Positions 2,368 to 11,740 of a stretch of DNA of 20,141 bases are shown here, in pieces; within the stretch, counting starts at the first letter, position 1; every line of letters starts with the position of its first letter. The notes under the pieces were generated by a model that saw only the letters and a program-made list of their open reading frames with translations, was not told where the DNA came from and did not search any database. Source of the DNA: a virus; IMG/VR virus record IMGVR_UViG_3300042888_000469, positions 1-20,141 of that record; one strand, written 5' to 3'. The translations under genes were made by a program, and so were the position numbers.

Positions 2368-2372
2368 GTACT

Positions 2373-2379
2373 TATTTAC
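2373..2379 (-). promoter_or_regulatory. TAAATA late-promoter-like motif before gp17
   Basis: The minus strand reads GTAAATA, then AGTAC, then the gp17 ATG. The motif begins only 6 nt after the terminator hairpin, so it would restart transcription for gp17. If initiation falls about 6 nt downstream as at T4 late promoters, the mRNA would begin at or next to the start codon. Confidence 0.55.
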
Positions 2380-2380
2380 T

Positions 2381-2409
2381 GAAAAAAATAGCCTCCGAAG
2401 AGGCTATTT
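2381..2409 (-). terminator. Intrinsic terminator with UUCG tetraloop, upstream of gp17
   Basis: A perfect 10-bp stem pairs 2409-2400 with 2395-2386 (minus strand AAATAGCCTC and GAGGCTATTT). The four-base loop is TTCG, giving the very stable C(UUCG)G tetraloop typical of T4 terminators. The stem runs into a T-rich tract ending near 2382. It lies just after the stop of the 217-aa gene and just before the gp17 promoter motif. The plus strand is also A/T flanked, but the loop and U-tract favour the minus strand. Confidence 0.9.
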
Positions 2410-4607: not shown

Positions 4608-4972
4608 GCAAGTATATTTCTTTGTATTTCCGGATTAGGCTGAAATTTCTGAGCATATCCTAAACTGCTTGATTTAAATCTATTGTAATTAAGTATTTCA
4701 GAAACTAGACCAGAAAGTTCTATATCATTTAGACCTCGTAGTGTATCTAAAATCTGCATAGGATTATAACCATCCTGTTTTGCCTGTCTAATAATAGTAA
4801 CTGCAATAGACTCTGCAGATACTTCACCAAAATTTCTAGAAGTGAAATATCCCTTCATAGCTGCTAAGGTAGTTGCATTTATCTCAATGGGTTGAGAATA
4901 AAAAGAATCAAATGCTTGAACTGTTTGATCTTGTGTTGTACTTAACGGTACATTGGAATAGTTGTTATTCAT
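4604..4972 (-). CDS. Small conserved phage protein, 122 aa
   Basis: The product starts MNNNYSNVPLSTTQDQTVQA and carries the helix-rich segment ESIAVTIIRQAKQDGYNPMQ followed by ILDTLRGLNDIELSGLVSEI. From memory similar small proteins accompany the gp48/gp4 region in marine T4-like phages and are listed as structural, but I do not know its role. It lies between the tube-cap gene (2 nt gap) and gp4 (4-nt ATGA overlap), so it is almost certainly cotranslated with them and is probably a virion assembly component. A weak purine stretch AAAGAGA precedes the ATG. Confidence 0.8.
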   Translation of the reverse strand: MNNNYSNVPLSTTQDQTVQAFDSFYSQPIEINATTLAAMKGYFTSRNFGEVSAESIAVTIIRQAKQDGYNPMQILDTLRGLNDIELSGLVSEILNYNRFKSSSLGYAQKFQPNPEIQRNILA

Positions 4973-4974
4973 TG

Positions 4975-6111
4975 TTATCTCTTTCCGGGAAATATAATTG
5001 CTGCGGGATTAGCTCTAATTTTCCCATCTACTCCGGTATTGATTGCTTTAAAAATGTTAATGCCTACTCCGCCAGGTAATGTAAATATCCCTGGTTGATC
5101 TTCGGCAGGCGGGGGAGTGTAGTATTTTCCAGGTGCAGTTTTAGATAGTGCGCCAAGGGCGCCGTTTGCTATGTTATACGCTCCTGCTTTCGTTCTAGTA
5201 ATACCGTTTGTATTAACATAATTCTTAGCTAATATTCCGACAATATTTAATAATGGATTAGAAGCCGAGTTACTTCCTCCGACTCTTCCAAATATTCTCT
5301 GTGCGCCGGGTTTATCAAACCCTGTTTCTCTCTTAACGTAACTTGCACTGTTTAATGGATTTCCTGCAATCGATAACGGACTCGGAGTTTTGTCATAATA
5401 GACACTAGTGAATCCCGGCGGGTCAGTCTCTGCAACAATTTGACCATAATCGTATAAGACATTTTCGTATGCGATTGTCATTCTATTTTGCATCACTTTG
5501 CTGCCCTCGGCCTGATTCAAAGAGTCGTGTGCCCATTCTGTAATTTTAGGATTTATTAAAGTTATCTGCGTAAAGTTCTGTTGATGCAACGAGTATATAT
5601 CGATGGATGTAATAAAAGGAGTCTTAACTCCGTTGTCATATATACCATATTGGAAATCAGTCTCGCCGTACTTTGTATCATAAAATGATGTTGGGACCTC
5701 ATTCCTAGATTTACCATACTTGCTGTCTGCAAAATGATGTTTGTAATAGTTAGTCCATAATTTATTAACGATGTCTAAATTGTCGTCGTGAAATTCAGCA
5801 CTAACCGGAGTATAATTTAGTTTAGTCTGTACCACAGTTTTTCTATTGTATTGATTAACTGTTTCAGTAGTAACTCCGAATTTAGGAAGATCAATTTTTT
5901 TAACCAACACGCCAACATCTAATGATCCAGTGTTCTTCCAACGCTCGTCGGATATTGCTGCAGGATTTAGATTAAACACAACATAATAAAGAAATCCTAG
6001 CTTAGGAGAATATCCGTAGTTGTCATCTACATATAGCCTGCTAGCATGTTGGTAATCTCGCAATACAGTATTACCGCTTGCTGATAAAAAATTATTAAAG
6101 GCGTTACTCAT
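4975..6111 (-). CDS. gp48: Baseplate tail-tube cap/initiator protein (gp48/gp54-like)
   Basis: The 378-aa protein starts MSNAFNNFLSASGNTVLRDY. Its pattern ASRLYVDDNYGYSPKLGFLY, then VKKIDLPKFGVTTETVNQYN and VSAEFHDDNLDIVNKLWTNY, matches what I recall for proteins annotated gp48 in cyanophage-like T4 relatives. The central part resembles a tail-tube domain: a beta-hairpin-rich fold with a helix after HDD. The C-terminus is Gly/Ala/Pro rich. In T4, gp48 and gp54 build the baseplate hub platform on which the gp19 tube polymerises; which of the two this is cannot be settled here. It is the first gene after the gp19 terminator. There is no Shine-Dalgarno sequence; CTAAATA lies 5 nt upstream of the ATG. 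Confidence 0.8.
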   Translation of the reverse strand: MSNAFNNFLSASGNTVLRDYQHASRLYVDDNYGYSPKLGFLYYVVFNLNPAAISDERWKNTGSLDVGVLVKKIDLPKFGVTTETVNQYNRKTVVQTKLNYTPVSAEFHDDNLDIVNKLWTNYYKHHFADSKYGKSRNEVPTSFYDTKYGETDFQYGIYDNGVKTPFITSIDIYSLHQQNFTQITLINPKITEWAHDSLNQAEGSKVMQNRMTIAYENVLYDYGQIVAETDPPGFTSVYYDKTPSPLSIAGNPLNSASYVKRETGFDKPGAQRIFGRVGGSNSASNPLLNIVGILAKNYVNTNGITRTKAGAYNIANGALGALSKTAPGKYYTPPPAEDQPGIFTLPGGVGINIFKAINTGVDGKIRANPAAIIFPGKR

Positions 6112-6116
6112 GCAAA

Positions 6117-6123
6117 TATTTAG
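6117..6123 (-). promoter_or_regulatory. TAAATA late-promoter-like motif before the gp48-like gene
   Basis: The minus strand reads CTAAATA, then TTTGC, then ATG. It comes directly after a terminator hairpin, so it would begin a new transcription unit. The 5-nt spacer is the same as at gp13 and gp17, and no Shine-Dalgarno sequence is present. Confidence 0.6.
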
Positions 6124-6125
6124 TC

Positions 6126-6858: not shown

Positions 6859-9795
6859 TTACAGACCAGCTGCAATATCGCCAGTGTTCTTCAATCTTAG
6901 AGGAATGTAAATGTATTCAACTGCTTTTACTGGTTCAATAGCAATGTCTAAGTACAATTCGCTGCGATCAACTCTTGCAGGAGTATTATTAGTTTCGTCA
7001 CATACTACTACAAAATCATAAAGTGCTCGCTGTCCTACTAATTCTAACATTAGGCTTTCGGCAGCAGCTTTAATTTCACGACGAGTTTGCGCATCATTAG
7101 GTTCAAACAAGAACGGTCTTGCTAGTACATCTAGTTGCCTACGCAGATATACAACTAAGCGAGCAACGTTAATCCTGTCCAATGCACTAGCATTTCTTGC
7201 ACGAGTTCTCTGACCGTAGGCTAATACACCCACTCCAGTTAGTGTTGCAATTGGATTAACCTTAACATCGTCGAGTACATCTCGAAGACCTTGATGCAAT
7301 GCAACTGTTTTAAATTCGCCTTCATCAGTGATGTAACCAACCGATGTAGCATTATCAACACCGCCTCGTCTAGTACCTGCAGGAGCGAACCACGGATAGC
7401 TCTTAGCATCACTATTAATGATAGTGCGTAGCATCATGTGACTTGGTGGAACAACAATATAGTTTCCTGTATTATCGTTTGTGTATCCACTTGGATAATA
7501 CATAGCCATGTATTCGTCGTAACTGGTTGCACCAGTGTCTCCGTTGTCAAGTGCTAGGTTAGTGTTTAAACCCCACTCTCTTAAAGCAGTTCCTGTTGGT
7601 TGCAATCTGAATGGAGTGTCACCTACAACAAATGCAGTTAGTCCTCGATCAGTGTTAAGTGCAATCATATTCTGAATAGTTTCAGGATATCCAGGTGTTG
7701 CCATTAGGTTAAATCCTAATGTGTCAGTATCACGAACTGATGTGTTAGTATCAATTAATGACTTAAATGCTGCAACAACTTGTGCTCTTTGTGCAAGGCG
7801 ACCAAATTGTGGTCCTCCGTCTTCGGCTACTGCATTTTGACTTACCCAACGATCTCCAAAATAAGAAGTCATTGCACTATTGTTTTGACGAGGGTTAGTT
7901 GCATTTTTATTAATGTAACCAACAACGTATTGTTTGACGTTAAATCCACTACGGCGTGTATTCCATAGTCTCATTCCTCTTGGGTATAGTGCAGGATCTG
8001 GTGTATCAGGGTCTAGGTAATTGCTAGTCAATAGATCAACGATGCTGCTTGGGGTGCTTACAAGAGGACTATTTGCCCATCTTGCATCTGCAAATAACCA
8101 TCCGTCGGGTGTTGATTGATCAGTTACGTCTTGTTTGACCCAACCTGCAGATGTGCTATAAACATAAATGTCTCTACCGTATGCATTTGGATTACTTGTA
8201 TCGATCCAAATATCACCATTGGCTAATGCTCCGCCTGCGGAATTTCCTGTCGCAGCATCTGGTTCAGTTGCTGAGATGATAGGACCAGCAGGGTCAGATC
8301 CTGGAAATGCTGTTGCATCCTTATAACCTACCCAGGTAGTTCCGTTGTGATATAAGATATCTGCGGTTAGATTAGTATCATACCACATGGTGCCATCTGC
8401 AGGAGTTGTAAATGGTGCAGTATTACTTGCTTCATATGCTAATGGCTTCCATGTAGTTGCAATGAAGTTGAATGGGGTAGTACCTGTATAGTAGTCACCT
8501 GTTGGTGCAGTGTATAAGTTAGTAGTTGCTCCACTGAAGAAGTTAGTTAAAGGTGCATTTAGTCCGTCTGCTAATTCAAATGCTCCTCCACCGGTGTGTA
8601 ATAATGTCAACGAATTTGTAGTGGCGTTCCACTGTGCAGTAGTATAAACTAGTCCCTGTGCGGCCATTTCAGCAGCAAATAACGAACCTAATTTAATACC
8701 AGTAAATCCTGTTGTCATGGTTACTGTTTTTACACTGCTCCATGCGCCGCTTAAATTAGTTTCTCTGATACTAAACACATAGTTAGTGCCTGTTGTAACA
8801 GTAGTAGCAGTAGATCCTGTGATTGTAGTTGAACCAATGCTGCCTTTTCTCCAAATTTTAAAACTTGCAGTTGCATTATTATTATAATCGGAATCGATAA
8901 AAATAGAACCCACTGGAACATTCTTGCCACCGCCAGTTGGATCTAATGCATAATTCGCTGTTTGTATGCCGGAATAAATTGGGCTAGTTACAGTAGTCCA
9001 AGATTGTCCCGAACTACTGTATAATTTAACTGACCAATTAGCTCCATTTGCAGGAGTTGTGGTAGTTACCCAAACACTTCCTGTTGCTGTACTAGTAGTA
9101 AAAGTTGGATAGGTATAGTGCGGGCTAACCTGTACTGATTTTCCAGAGAACCCATGTTGAACCAACGACCAAGTGTTGTTTAAATTTTTATAGTATAATT
9201 CGTTGGTATTATTTTTTGTAATTACCATGCAATAGTCGCCGCCGATACCTACAGAAGTATCCGGAATTGACCCGTTAAAGCTAGATGCACTAGAATTATC
9301 GTTTAATACAATTGGAGTCTTGACAGTAAATTTCTGCGTACTAGAATTCCATTCTTTAACACCATACAGTGATGTTGCAGTATCTACCCAATATGTTCCG
9401 GCAACTGGGCCACCTAGTGGGATAGTGCTTGTTGGTACTAAATCTGACAAATCTAAATCTGCACGAACAACATATGCTCTTGAGCTAACACCAAGTGTGC
9501 TGTATGCAGTTTGCAATCCGTACTCATTTAGTTCATTGCCATGCTGAGCATTTCCGCTAGAATCAGTATAGAACAAAGGAGTGCCAAACGTGTCTGTTAG
9601 ATCTCTCTGACTAGTGATCAACCATACTTTACCGGCGTTGGCAGCGGTAGTACCCTGAGCAACTGTGCCACTTGGGTTAATTTTGTCTTGTGCAGACGCT
9701 ACGAATAAAATAGGTACAGTGCCCGGTGCAGACGGAGTATAAAAACTCTCGTCAATAACTTGTACTTGTACGCCTGGTGAATCTAATGTTGCCAT
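6859..9795 (-). CDS. gp18: Contractile tail sheath protein, enlarged by repeated insert
   Basis: The 978-aa protein has the conserved ends of T4 gp18 (659 aa): N-terminal LDSPGVQVQVIDESFYTPS and a C-terminal core with DVLDDVKVNPIATLTGVGVL, GQRTRARNASALDRINVARL and VYLRRQLDVLARPFLFEPND, which form the sheath-to-sheath contacts. The extra length lies in residues about 120-560. There a Trp/Tyr-rich motif of the form G-x-x-W-x-D-T...Y...W recurs six times, for example GTMWYDTNLTADILYHNGTT at 468-487 and GDIWIDTSNPNAYG at 527-540. In sheath proteins such inserts usually form outward-facing domains on the tail surface; surface exposure here is inferred. The start has AAGGAG 9 nt upstream and a GGTAAATAA motif. 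Identification as sheath is firm. Confidence 0.95.
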   Translation of the reverse strand: MATLDSPGVQVQVIDESFYTPSAPGTVPILFVASAQDKINPSGTVAQGTTAANAGKVWLITSQRDLTDTFGTPLFYTDSSGNAQHGNELNEYGLQTAYSTLGVSSRAYVVRADLDLSDLVPTSTIPLGGPVAGTYWVDTATSLYGVKEWNSSTQKFTVKTPIVLNDNSSASSFNGSIPDTSVGIGGDYCMVITKNNTNELYYKNLNNTWSLVQHGFSGKSVQVSPHYTYPTFTTSTATGSVWVTTTTPANGANWSVKLYSSSGQSWTTVTSPIYSGIQTANYALDPTGGGKNVPVGSIFIDSDYNNNATASFKIWRKGSIGSTTITGSTATTVTTGTNYVFSIRETNLSGAWSSVKTVTMTTGFTGIKLGSLFAAEMAAQGLVYTTAQWNATTNSLTLLHTGGGAFELADGLNAPLTNFFSGATTNLYTAPTGDYYTGTTPFNFIATTWKPLAYEASNTAPFTTPADGTMWYDTNLTADILYHNGTTWVGYKDATAFPGSDPAGPIISATEPDAATGNSAGGALANGDIWIDTSNPNAYGRDIYVYSTSAGWVKQDVTDQSTPDGWLFADARWANSPLVSTPSSIVDLLTSNYLDPDTPDPALYPRGMRLWNTRRSGFNVKQYVVGYINKNATNPRQNNSAMTSYFGDRWVSQNAVAEDGGPQFGRLAQRAQVVAAFKSLIDTNTSVRDTDTLGFNLMATPGYPETIQNMIALNTDRGLTAFVVGDTPFRLQPTGTALREWGLNTNLALDNGDTGATSYDEYMAMYYPSGYTNDNTGNYIVVPPSHMMLRTIINSDAKSYPWFAPAGTRRGGVDNATSVGYITDEGEFKTVALHQGLRDVLDDVKVNPIATLTGVGVLAYGQRTRARNASALDRINVARLVVYLRRQLDVLARPFLFEPNDAQTRREIKAAAESLMLELVGQRALYDFVVVCDETNNTPARVDRSELYLDIAIEPVKAVEYIYIPLRLKNTGDIAAGL

Positions 9796-9834: not shown

Positions 9835-9857
9835 ATAAGTTGTATAAAACCTCCTGG

Positions 9858-9864
9858 TTAAATA
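9858..9864 (+). promoter_or_regulatory. TAAATA motif before the HNH-like gene
   Basis: The plus strand reads GGTTAAATACA and then ATG. It is the only promoter-like signal for this isolated plus-strand gene. With initiation about 6 nt downstream, the first ATG (9867) would sit at the mRNA end and ATG 9879, preceded by AAAAGGG, could be used instead. Confidence 0.4.
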
Positions 9865-9866
9865 CA

Positions 9867-10229
9867 ATGAAAAGGGCAATGAAAAGGGCGGGAATGAGAG
9901 ATTTATGTAATATTTGCGGCCAACGACCGGTTGCAATTAACTATTATAAGGATGGGAAAGCATTCTATAGATCAAAGTGCGATCATTGTTCCAGGAATCG
10001 CAACGACGGAAAACCTAAGTGGGAGGTAGTTGGTTACAAGAAAAAAGCCGCATGTGATAAGTGCGGCTTTGTTTCAAAACACCCTGAACAATTTAATGTC
10101 TATTATGTAGATGGAGATCCGTCTAATTGCAGATTTTCTAACTTAAAAACAGTATGCGCTAATTGCCAGCGCATACTTCATAAACTTAAGATGCCGTGGA
10201 AGCAGGGCGATCTAAAACCAGATTTTTAA
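9867..10229 (+). CDS. Zinc-ribbon / degenerate HNH-like protein
   Basis: The 120-aa basic protein has four CxxC pairs (C14/C17, C38/C41, C63/C66, C97/C100). The second half follows the HNH nuclease layout: CDKCG, then FNVYYVDGDPSN, then SNLKTVCANC. In HNH enzymes the segment before the turn is usually His-His or Tyr-His; here it is Tyr79-Tyr80, so the catalytic metal-binding His is missing while N93 of the SNL motif remains. The first half repeats the scheme (CNICG, NYYKDG, CDHC), suggesting an internal duplication. It probably binds nucleic acid; cleavage is doubtful. The frame is open to a TTG at 9840 (adding nine residues), which I cannot exclude as the start. The stop overlaps that of the convergent dNMP kinase by 4 nt. 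Confidence 0.85.
   Translation: MKRAMKRAGMRDLCNICGQRPVAINYYKDGKAFYRSKCDHCSRNRNDGKPKWEVVGYKKKAACDKCGFVSKHPEQFNVYYVDGDPSNCRFSNLKTVCANCQRILHKLKMPWKQGDLKPDF
10041..10070 (-). terminator. Minus-strand terminator embedded in the HNH-like coding sequence
   Basis: A perfect 9-bp stem pairs AAAGCCGCA (10044-10052) with TGCGGCTTT (10062-10070) around a 9-nt loop. Read on the minus strand it is followed by a run of T ending at 10041, the form of an intrinsic terminator. On the plus strand the tail is only TTTGTTTC. It would stop transcripts leaving the convergent dNMP kinase gene about 155 nt past its stop codon, inside the neighbouring gene. Confidence 0.75.
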
Positions 10230-10903
10230 ACTAAATCTAAAGCTATCTTTGTACTAAATGGCAAATCCGCCGGGGGTAGTAATTTCTTAATCTGATCAAA
10301 TAGGTCATCAATAGATGAATCGTTATGTACGACATTATCTACATCTATGCCGACCCATGCTGTTTCGCTTGCATGAATTTTAAGTTTTTCTAACTTAGAC
10401 CTGCTAATGCTCCAGGTTGCATTACCATTGGGTCCGGCATTTGCACTAACCGCAGCATCATACCATTCAGGGTCCTCTCCGCGCTTAACACGAACAACAA
10501 TACCGCCTGCGTTATGAATGGCTTTGATTTCGTTAGGGAAGCGTACATCGCTAATAACAATGTTGTCAGTAGTCTTACGCATTTTGTTTTCTAAGCTGGC
10601 AATCCAGATGTCATCATGAAAAGCATCTCGACATACTTCTGTACCCCAATATTGCAGAACCCAACGTGGTGTTAGCTTAGGCATGTTTAATCGTTCAGCC
10701 CACCATGTATCGACTTGTTCACGCCATTCACGAGCTTCTTTCGTACGACCTTCTAGCAGGACGCGGTCCCAACCGAATACAGCCGAAACCGCGTCTTTTA
10801 ATGTATTTGCAAATGAATCTCTTCTAAACCCGTGCGTATTAACCAAATAATCTGCGGCAGTATCCTTGCCCGACCCTATAAACCCAACAAAGCCAATGAT
10901 CAT
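10226..10903 (-). CDS. gp1: Deoxynucleoside monophosphate kinase (gp1-like)
   Basis: The 225-aa protein phosphorylates dNMPs to dNDPs for phage DNA synthesis if it acts like T4 gp1. It shows a P-loop GFIGSGKDTAADYL starting at residue 7, the segment WVLQYWGTEVCRDAFHDDIW (81-100), the core motif VISDVRFPNE (116-125) and HASE (177-180), with a final VVHNDSSIDDLFDQIKKLL typical of the family (NDGS followed by a helix). The start at 10903 is supported by AGGGG in the loop of a hairpin that also holds the AUG. It lies after gp13 with a 56-nt gap and converges on the HNH-like gene. An early-type metabolic gene inside a late morphogenesis block is unusual and may explain its own promoter. Confidence 0.9.
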   Translation of the reverse strand: MIIGFVGFIGSGKDTAADYLVNTHGFRRDSFANTLKDAVSAVFGWDRVLLEGRTKEAREWREQVDTWWAERLNMPKLTPRWVLQYWGTEVCRDAFHDDIWIASLENKMRKTTDNIVISDVRFPNEIKAIHNAGGIVVRVKRGEDPEWYDAAVSANAGPNGNATWSISRSKLEKLKIHASETAWVGIDVDNVVHNDSSIDDLFDQIKKLLPPADLPFSTKIALDLV

Positions 10904-10925
10904 AACATCCCCTAGATGTTATAAT
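10899..10925 (-). promoter_or_regulatory. Start-codon hairpin of the dNMP kinase mRNA
   Basis: On the minus strand ATTATAACATC (10925-10915) pairs with GATGTTATGAT (10909-10899): eleven pairs including one U-G, around the loop TAGGG. The Shine-Dalgarno bases lie in the loop and stem top and the AUG (10903-10901) is wholly inside the 3' arm. Such a structure should block initiation in any mRNA that contains both arms. Confidence 0.65.
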
Positions 10926-10951
10926 TTATTACATTTAGCCTACAAGGTCAA
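10923..10951 (-). promoter_or_regulatory. Possible sigma70-type promoter for the dNMP kinase
   Basis: The minus strand has TTGACC (10951-10946), a 17-nt spacer, then TAAATT (10928-10923). Predicted initiation near A10917 would fall inside the 5' arm of the start-codon hairpin and leave AGGGG before the ATG. Spacing is ideal; the -10 element is moderate. A host-polymerase early promoter would suit this gene. Confidence 0.45.
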
Positions 10952-10959
10952 TATTTTTT

Positions 10960-11718
10960 TTAGCCAATTACAAATGTAAGAGGTGTGCCACCGTCTTTGT
11001 AATTTACTAGATCCATTTCTAGCGTTTCCATCTCAGCTTTGCCTTCTGCTTTTAAGGCTGTTCCGTTTAGGGCAGTTCCGCCTTGCGGGCTAGCAATCTG
11101 ATTAAATTTTTCACGAGCCTCACCTAGCATCATTTTACAGCTAGCAAGACTATAATCTTTTAACCACTGATTTGCAGAAGGATCTTGCAATAAATTGAAG
11201 TCCGGCCTATAGTTATATAACCATACTAGGACTTCTTCCTCACTTCTAGGACGTTGCATAATGGTCAATTTCTTTGTCGTTTTGTTAAACGTAAAGTTAA
11301 TATCGCTGCCGAACATTTTGCCAACTTGTTTTTGGTAGCTTGCAAAGGCATAATAAGTGGCTAGGCCACCCATGTTCGATGAAGTTAATAAGTATGTATT
11401 TGAATAAGCAAGGTTAAACGGTTCAAATAATGTACCACCTTGCCCGCCACCTGACCTAGAACCTATACTTCTTCTAAACATCTGTCGAACAGCCATTACT
11501 TCTGATGGTAAAGTGTAGTCGTTTTTATCAACTTCTATCATCAAAAATGCAAAACTTTCTTCTACTGCATTACTGCTGCGTTGTCGGAACTTGTTTAAAG
11601 CTCTGTCAATAGCAATATTATAATGTGCAGGGTCTAGCTCCACATCAACCATGCCATCACCTAGCATTAGTTTGCAGTAGTCTATTACCTTTTGGCGTTC
11701 GTTTTCGTTCTCGGTCAT
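10960..11718 (-). CDS. gp13: Neck protein
   Basis: The 252-aa protein fits the gp13 family of T4-like phages (T4 gp13 is about 309 aa): N-terminal VIDYCKLMLGDGMVDVELDP with a helix DRALNKFRQRSSNAVEESFA, then a beta-rich middle (LMIEVDKNDYTLPSEVMAVR, KKLTIMQRPRSEEEVLVWLY) and a C-terminal helix WLKDYSLASCKMMLGEAREK. With gp14 it forms the neck that closes the filled head and accepts the tail. It has no Shine-Dalgarno sequence; CTAAATA lies 5 nt before the ATG. It is divergent from gp14, whereas in T4 genes 13 and 14 are colinear. The downstream gene is the dNMP kinase and no terminator is seen between them. Confidence 0.85.
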   Translation of the reverse strand: MTENENERQKVIDYCKLMLGDGMVDVELDPAHYNIAIDRALNKFRQRSSNAVEESFAFLMIEVDKNDYTLPSEVMAVRQMFRRSIGSRSGGGQGGTLFEPFNLAYSNTYLLTSSNMGGLATYYAFASYQKQVGKMFGSDINFTFNKTTKKLTIMQRPRSEEEVLVWLYNYRPDFNLLQDPSANQWLKDYSLASCKMMLGEAREKFNQIASPQGGTALNGTALKAEGKAEMETLEMDLVNYKDGGTPLTFVIG

Positions 11719-11723
11719 ATCAA

Positions 11724-11740
11724 TATTTAGCTTATAAATA
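11724..11740. promoter_or_regulatory. Back-to-back late-promoter-like motifs between gp13 and gp14
   Basis: The plus strand reads TATTTAG-CT-TATAAATA. CTAAATA on the minus strand (11730-11724) faces gp13 with 5 nt to its ATG. The full T4 consensus TATAAATA (11733-11740) faces gp14 with 7 nt to its ATG. The two motifs are only 2 nt apart and together form an imperfect palindrome. The whole divergent intergenic region is 29 nt. Confidence 0.65.

Follow-up and report, generated by a model that had tools for sequence, protein, structure and literature searches.

The window analyzed here is a 20 kb viral record (20,141 nucleotides) from a large set of uncultured giant phages represented by metagenomic viral contigs. 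It carries a dNMP kinase gene between the genes for a gp13-like head-tail adaptor and the tail sheath, with a candidate promoter and a hairpin at the kinase start. The features on which the analysis turns are as follows, in the order in which the minus strand is read.

11719..11734, minus strand: late-type TAAATA motif just 5' of the gp13 ATG (GCTAAATATTGATATG)
10960..11718, minus strand: gene for the gp13-like head-tail adaptor Ad2, upstream of the kinase and a candidate source of late read-through
10946..10951, minus strand: -35 element TTGACC, of which TTGAC is shared by 48 of 53 distinct relatives
10923..10928, minus strand: -10 element TAAATT (TATAAT in a second clade of relatives)
10916..10917, minus strand: predicted transcription start inside the 5' arm, placed by the -10 spacing (7 nt past the end of the -10)
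10914..10925, minus strand: 5' arm of the hairpin, overlapping the end of the -10 and lying mostly upstream of the predicted start
10909..10913, minus strand: Shine-Dalgarno (SD) sequence AGGGG, in the loop and the top of the stem; a G-rich SD is kept in SD-led relatives
10899..10910, minus strand: 3' arm of the hairpin, containing the AUG (10903-10901) and part of codon 2
10226..10903, minus strand: dNMP kinase gene (225 aa; phrog_139 / PF21448)
9840-10229, plus strand: small HNH-like gene (phrog_2255, weak match), convergent to the kinase, between kinase and sheath
6859..9795, minus strand: tail sheath gene, downstream of the kinase, with its own TAAATA late motif and SD

The start region itself reads TTGACC-N17-TAAATT followed by ATAACATC TAGG GGATGTTATG, and a scan of the window for terminator-like sites gave none on the minus strand in the interval from gp13 to the kinase. 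The HNH-like gene is antisense to the late unit and is present in nearly all of the 80 relatives of the first clade described below.

The first-pass annotation, which was made from the letters of the sequence, had placed the kinase AUG in an 11-bp stem with AGGGG in the loop. Folding recovers this stem as 10925-10914 paired with 10910-10899, with 12 pairs of which one is a terminal U-G (hence 11-12 bp); the loop is AGG and the SD lies partly in the stem, so that the AUG and most of the SD are buried. The predicted energy is -11.3 kcal/mol (z -3.0), a value equalled by 3 of 200 shuffled sequences. A long outer helix was also predicted; the argument makes no use of it. The annotation had also proposed a sigma70-like promoter starting near 10917, within the 5' arm, whose mRNA would be unable to form the hairpin. 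Both points hold up: the promoter is a 9/12 match with a spacer of 17, its -10 spacing predicts a start at 10916/10917, only AUC/GAU of the stem is left in an RNA begun at 10917, and this truncated RNA of 68 nt shows nothing unusual in its predicted folding (z +0.4). Promoter-like sites number 25 in the window against 18.9 expected. Judged on the window alone, the combination of hairpin and promoter is moderately beyond chance, which is suggestive but not strong; it is conservation among relatives that lifts the layout beyond chance.

The nearest relatives (clade 1) are 80 viral contigs with kinases 74-100% identical, nearly all of which have the order gp13, kinase, convergent HNH-like gene, sheath. 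Upstream of the kinase nearly all carry TTGACA-N17-TAAATT-ATAGTATC-loop-GGAGATACTATG or a version of it in which the pairing is retained. An exact-pattern scan with one version of the whole layout found 117 IMG/VR stretches, and among the matches listed 80 of 80 lay at kinase starts; a covariance-model (CM) search of 11 large contigs gave one strong match per contig. Across 45 distinct clade 1 sequences, 89.7% of the pair cells are paired, against 25-65% in shifted registers, and the inner pairs vary (GC/AU, UA/UG/CG and AU/GC). The promoter spacing is fixed even in the group of L028, where the stop of gp13 is nearer and the last codons of that gene contain the -35, a Leu codon that is CTT in the window having become TTG. 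Insertions between gp13 and the kinase were also seen: a methyltransferase-like gene in L047, L055 and L067, which retain the kinase promoter and hairpin; an insertion in L077; and in L027 (267-1164) an HNH-like gene with its own TAAATA and SD, where the kinase promoter and hairpin are replaced.

Clade 2, with kinases mostly 62-72% identical, has the same layout in other letters. The -10 is mostly TATAAT, and the arms are AATGTCT/AGACATT, AATGCTC/GAGCATT, AATAGTCT/AGACTATT, AATATCC/GGATATT or AGCGT/ACGCT. Among 195 distinct kinase upstream regions, 182 have a sigma70-type promoter, and in 180 of these a start-site stem folds across the predicted start (173 of 175 SD-led and 7 of 7 leaderless-type starts). 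Stems occur in 89 distinct sequences, with AU, UA, GC and CG all found at the same positions, and on the kinase tree three stem positions need 23, 21 and 20 changes of Watson-Crick type. These tree counts take in pairs that form, and a test with swapped arms therefore serves as the control for selection of paired cases. It was applied to the 131 distinct promoter-bearing starts of clades 1 and 2, in which the duplex formed by a sequence's own arms stands at -9.8 kcal/mol as compared with -4.4 kcal/mol for swapped, different arms, and own arms are the better in 127 of 131. In the same 131 starts the spacer is 17 in 121 and 18 in 10, and the start region folds at -9.7 in full-length RNA and at -1.1 in RNA from the predicted start. 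RNAalifold on a MAFFT alignment predicted no consensus structure, and the comparison of own with swapped arms was used in its place. Both arms are also under other constraints, the 5' arm through its overlap with promoter DNA and the 3' arm through its overlap with the SD and AUG. The compensatory changes that the annotation had asked to be sought in related phages are thus present in both arms, and homologues that lose the stem while keeping the flanking sequence are not the pattern: the stem is kept while its sequence changes.

This variability bears on two readings in which the conserved element is a binding site. An inverted repeat that overlaps the -10 and +1 sits where operators usually do, and the repeat could be a DNA site through which a repressor or activator acts on the promoter; stems of 89 different sequences at one place, arm spacings that vary with loops of about 3-8 nt, and some arms that lie upstream of the -10 make this very improbable, as do one-sided changes that often keep a G-U pair (UA to UG at one pair in 14 sequences, for example), by which DNA symmetry is broken and RNA pairing kept. 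The hairpin could instead be the target of an RNA-binding repressor, a phage or host protein comparable to T4 gp43, gp32 or RegA that controls the kinase, and leader structures near T4 start sites do serve as protein targets (PMC3014915). The chance that this is the right account appears slim, given that loop and stem sequences are freely variable and that a protein of this kind could act on read-through RNA only, the predicted promoter mRNA being without the hairpin.

In clade 3 the kinases begin MTKIIG or MTTK and the -10 lies just 5-6 nt 5' of the ATG. This puts the predicted start at the AUG, and an mRNA from the promoter would be leaderless. The hairpin is retained and the AUG buried, as in L345 (TGTGTT-AATAT-AACACATG), L386 (ATGCTA-TTATAC-TAGCATG) and L330. 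What stays constant through clades 1-3, therefore, is that the gene's own mRNA begins only after most or all of the 5' arm. Retention of the stem in a leaderless clade that has no SD, together with an SD in the window that is GGGG, also makes it highly unlikely that the main role of the hairpin lies in protecting or processing read-through mRNA (by way of 5' stability, entry of RNases, or shielding of GGAG from a RegB-like nuclease) with the block to translation secondary, even though relatives commonly have GGAG in their SD and structure shields GGAG from RegB in T4 (PMC3014915).

By the criteria used, 13 of the 195 starts lack a promoter; 7 of the 13 still show a recognisable -10, and 5 of those 7 have the leaderless layout with a start-site fold. 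In six promoterless kinases (L014, L268, L337, L332, L027 and L344) the stop of the upstream ORF lies -7 to +4 nt from the ATG. This spacing fits a switch to coupled translation; the joint loss of promoter and hairpin is not significant when the hairpin is scored independently of the promoter, and one replacement could remove the two together. Among cultured relatives, the device is absent from Phosso, CBB, 121Q and Cassandra. In PA5oct-like phages (Cassandra) the kinase begins 4 nt after gp13 with no comparable promoter and hairpin, so late synthesis of the kinase is probably tolerated there. Agrobacterium phage Atu_ph07 (L083, about 4950-4992) has a different, larger inverted repeat, GGTATTCTCT..AGAGAATACC, that ends just 5' of the kinase ATG and is possibly the same idea reached separately.

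A stem at the start of an early gene is not in itself a specific observation. In these AU-rich leaders the base rate is high, with a 6-bp stem reached by 17 of the 43 other early genes. Since stem counts are this unspecific, the case is built on covariation, swapped arms and energies. The difference between full and truncated energies is -11.0 kcal/mol for the kinase as compared with -3.3 kcal/mol for other early genes. In SD-led early genes other than the kinase, own arms (-1.9) show no excess over swapped arms (-2.2), and all early genes taken together show no overall hairpin excess. A hairpin of this kind at all early genes was considered and rejected, there being only a tail of 10 of 103 genes at -10 kcal/mol or below against 4 expected, with late genes similar; an association of hairpins with early genes located behind late genes is not significant (p 0.095). 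In a simpler genome scan the kinase ranked first in three clade 1 genomes, and in a broader scan of the second-clade genome G012 it did not rank first, so uniqueness of the kinase hairpin is not claimed.

The temporal class of the kinase and its neighbours was assessed from their upstream motifs, with the genes of large contigs called by a simple script and promoters called by consensus. Counts of upstream hexamers in three relatives (354, 207 and 167 kb) place TAAATA and TTGACA among the most over-represented. Most genes behind promoters of the type TTGAC-N17-TATAAT are non-structural, and TAAATA is found ahead of sheath, fibre-like and baseplate-like genes; both motifs are carried by only 5 genes in the genome-wide count of the three relatives, which makes these nearly separate gene sets. 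The jumbo phages CBB and GAP32 share these two classes, an RpoD-like TTGACA at early genes and ATAAATA at structural genes, as well as a gp55-like sigma factor (PMC5259590); the CBB kinase (CBB_203), unlike the kinase here, has no such promoter and start-site hairpin. Among distinct relatives, TAAATA precedes gp13 in 44 of 44 (TTGAC in 0 of 44) and the sheath gene in 31 of 31, as against 0 of 53 for the kinase, which has TTGAC in 48 of 53. The kinase is thus a gene with an early-type promoter inside a late unit.

The reading that we consider very probable is that the kinase start is silent in any mRNA that begins farther upstream, and open in transcripts of the gene's own sigma70-type promoter. 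Read-through RNA of the late gp13 unit would hold both arms, its SD and AUG would fold into the stem of 11-12 bp, and it would be translated poorly; RNA started at about 10917 would be without most of the 5' arm and would present the SD and AUG single-stranded. In the relative G003, whose hairpin is identical to that of the window, the computed cost of opening the SD and AUG is 11.1 kcal/mol in read-through RNA and 2.4 kcal/mol in promoter mRNA. With an early-class promoter of its own and late-class neighbours, the kinase is proposed to be made early and not through late read-through. The early-on, late-off switch of the first-pass annotation stands in this form: the motif counts bear out the early-class promoter and the late-class neighbours, and "late-off" is the half that we infer. 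Computed support extends to both arms, their covariation, the fixed geometry of promoter and arm, and the promoter classes. What we infer beyond these concerns the exact 5' end, the early and late timing, the factor by which translation is reduced, and the reason for which late kinase synthesis would be disfavoured. At about -11 kcal/mol the AU-rich stem could be partly openable by ribosomes, and as to benefit, a guess is that ribosomes are saved for structural proteins.

Start-site helices of this kind are known from T4 genes e, soc, 49 and I-TevI and from Aeh1 mobE, in which the SD and/or AUG is held in a helix on long transcripts and a promoter immediately upstream yields RNA without the 5' part of the helix (PMC3014915, PMC2988022); for gene e, lysozyme synthesis from the long transcript is lower by about 100-fold (PMC3014915). 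The kinase resembles e, soc, 49 and I-TevI in the predicted sequestration of SD and AUG on long transcripts, by folding and covariation, and in a local promoter that would start inside or after the 5' arm, by promoter geometry in 131 and 182 distinct relatives. It differs in that the local promoter is of the sigma70 type, whereas that of the T4 type is a late promoter (TATAAATA/TAAATA). The reviews consulted describe the switch for late genes against early transcripts only (PMC3014915, PMC2988022), and all genes under such hairpins in a 2010 review are late genes on early or middle transcripts (PMC2988022). In T4, early and middle read-through is silenced and the gene is late; here, an early gene appears to be shut against late transcription, and the annotation was right that T4 works in the reverse sense. 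As compared with the T4 set, the relatives here are far more numerous and include a leaderless form. A similar geometry is found in the transposase genes of IS10 and IS50, where transcripts from outside fold the start site shut and the element's own promoter produces RNA without the upstream arm. There a mobile element is shielded from external activation, whereas here the gene is a dNMP kinase in the conserved synteny gp13-kinase-sheath. The device has been kept through near-complete sequence turnover and across the shift from SD-led starts to leaderless ones. It would allow timing to be set by the position of the RNA start, with no repressor needed, and it suggests that an mRNA spanning a gene in a polycistronic phage unit need not express that gene, which matters for the reading of RNA-seq as expression.

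Two other early genes have layouts that suggest a wider rule. In the gene 'MSKAFGAPEQAKIKQI' ('MSKAFGAPEQ'; 89-99 aa), an anti-SD lies inside the spacer between -35 and -10 in many relatives (L454-L533; G001 75753) and covaries with the SD region (CTCCTTGT/ACAAGGAG, CTCCTTAT/ATAAGGAG, CTCCTGTG/CACAGGAG); it is absent in some relatives. In the leaderless gene 'MTNTITAEAL' (L534-L594; G012 100009), the -10 is in the loop and the AUG in the 3' arm, with the stem sequence changing. Anti-start arms within promoter DNA would mean that each such gene is translated from its own transcript only, and a general rule of this kind at selected early genes, silent on read-through RNA, is a real possibility that we hold to be somewhat less likely than its absence. 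The sites of the arms under that rule would, tentatively, be the spacer ('MSKAFGAPEQ'), the surroundings of the -10 (leaderless genes) and the stretch just past the -10 (kinase). Strong stems at leaderless-type starts were also seen at G002 18801, around the -10 and AUG (CATACCTGC-TATCAT-GTAGGTATG), and at G014 171000, in a GIY-YIG-like gene (ATACCATAA..TTATGGTATG).

A separate observation concerns the late motif: many genes that have no SD carry TAAATA 4-7 nt 5' of the ATG (17 of them at a distance of 5 nt, where control words give about 1). Such starts occur in the window at 11719-11734, 6112-6125 and 2368-2381 (minus strand), in G001-G003, and at gp13 in 44 of 44 relatives. By analogy with the geometry of T4 late promoters, the mRNAs of these genes would be leaderless, and a widespread leaderless late class is possible.
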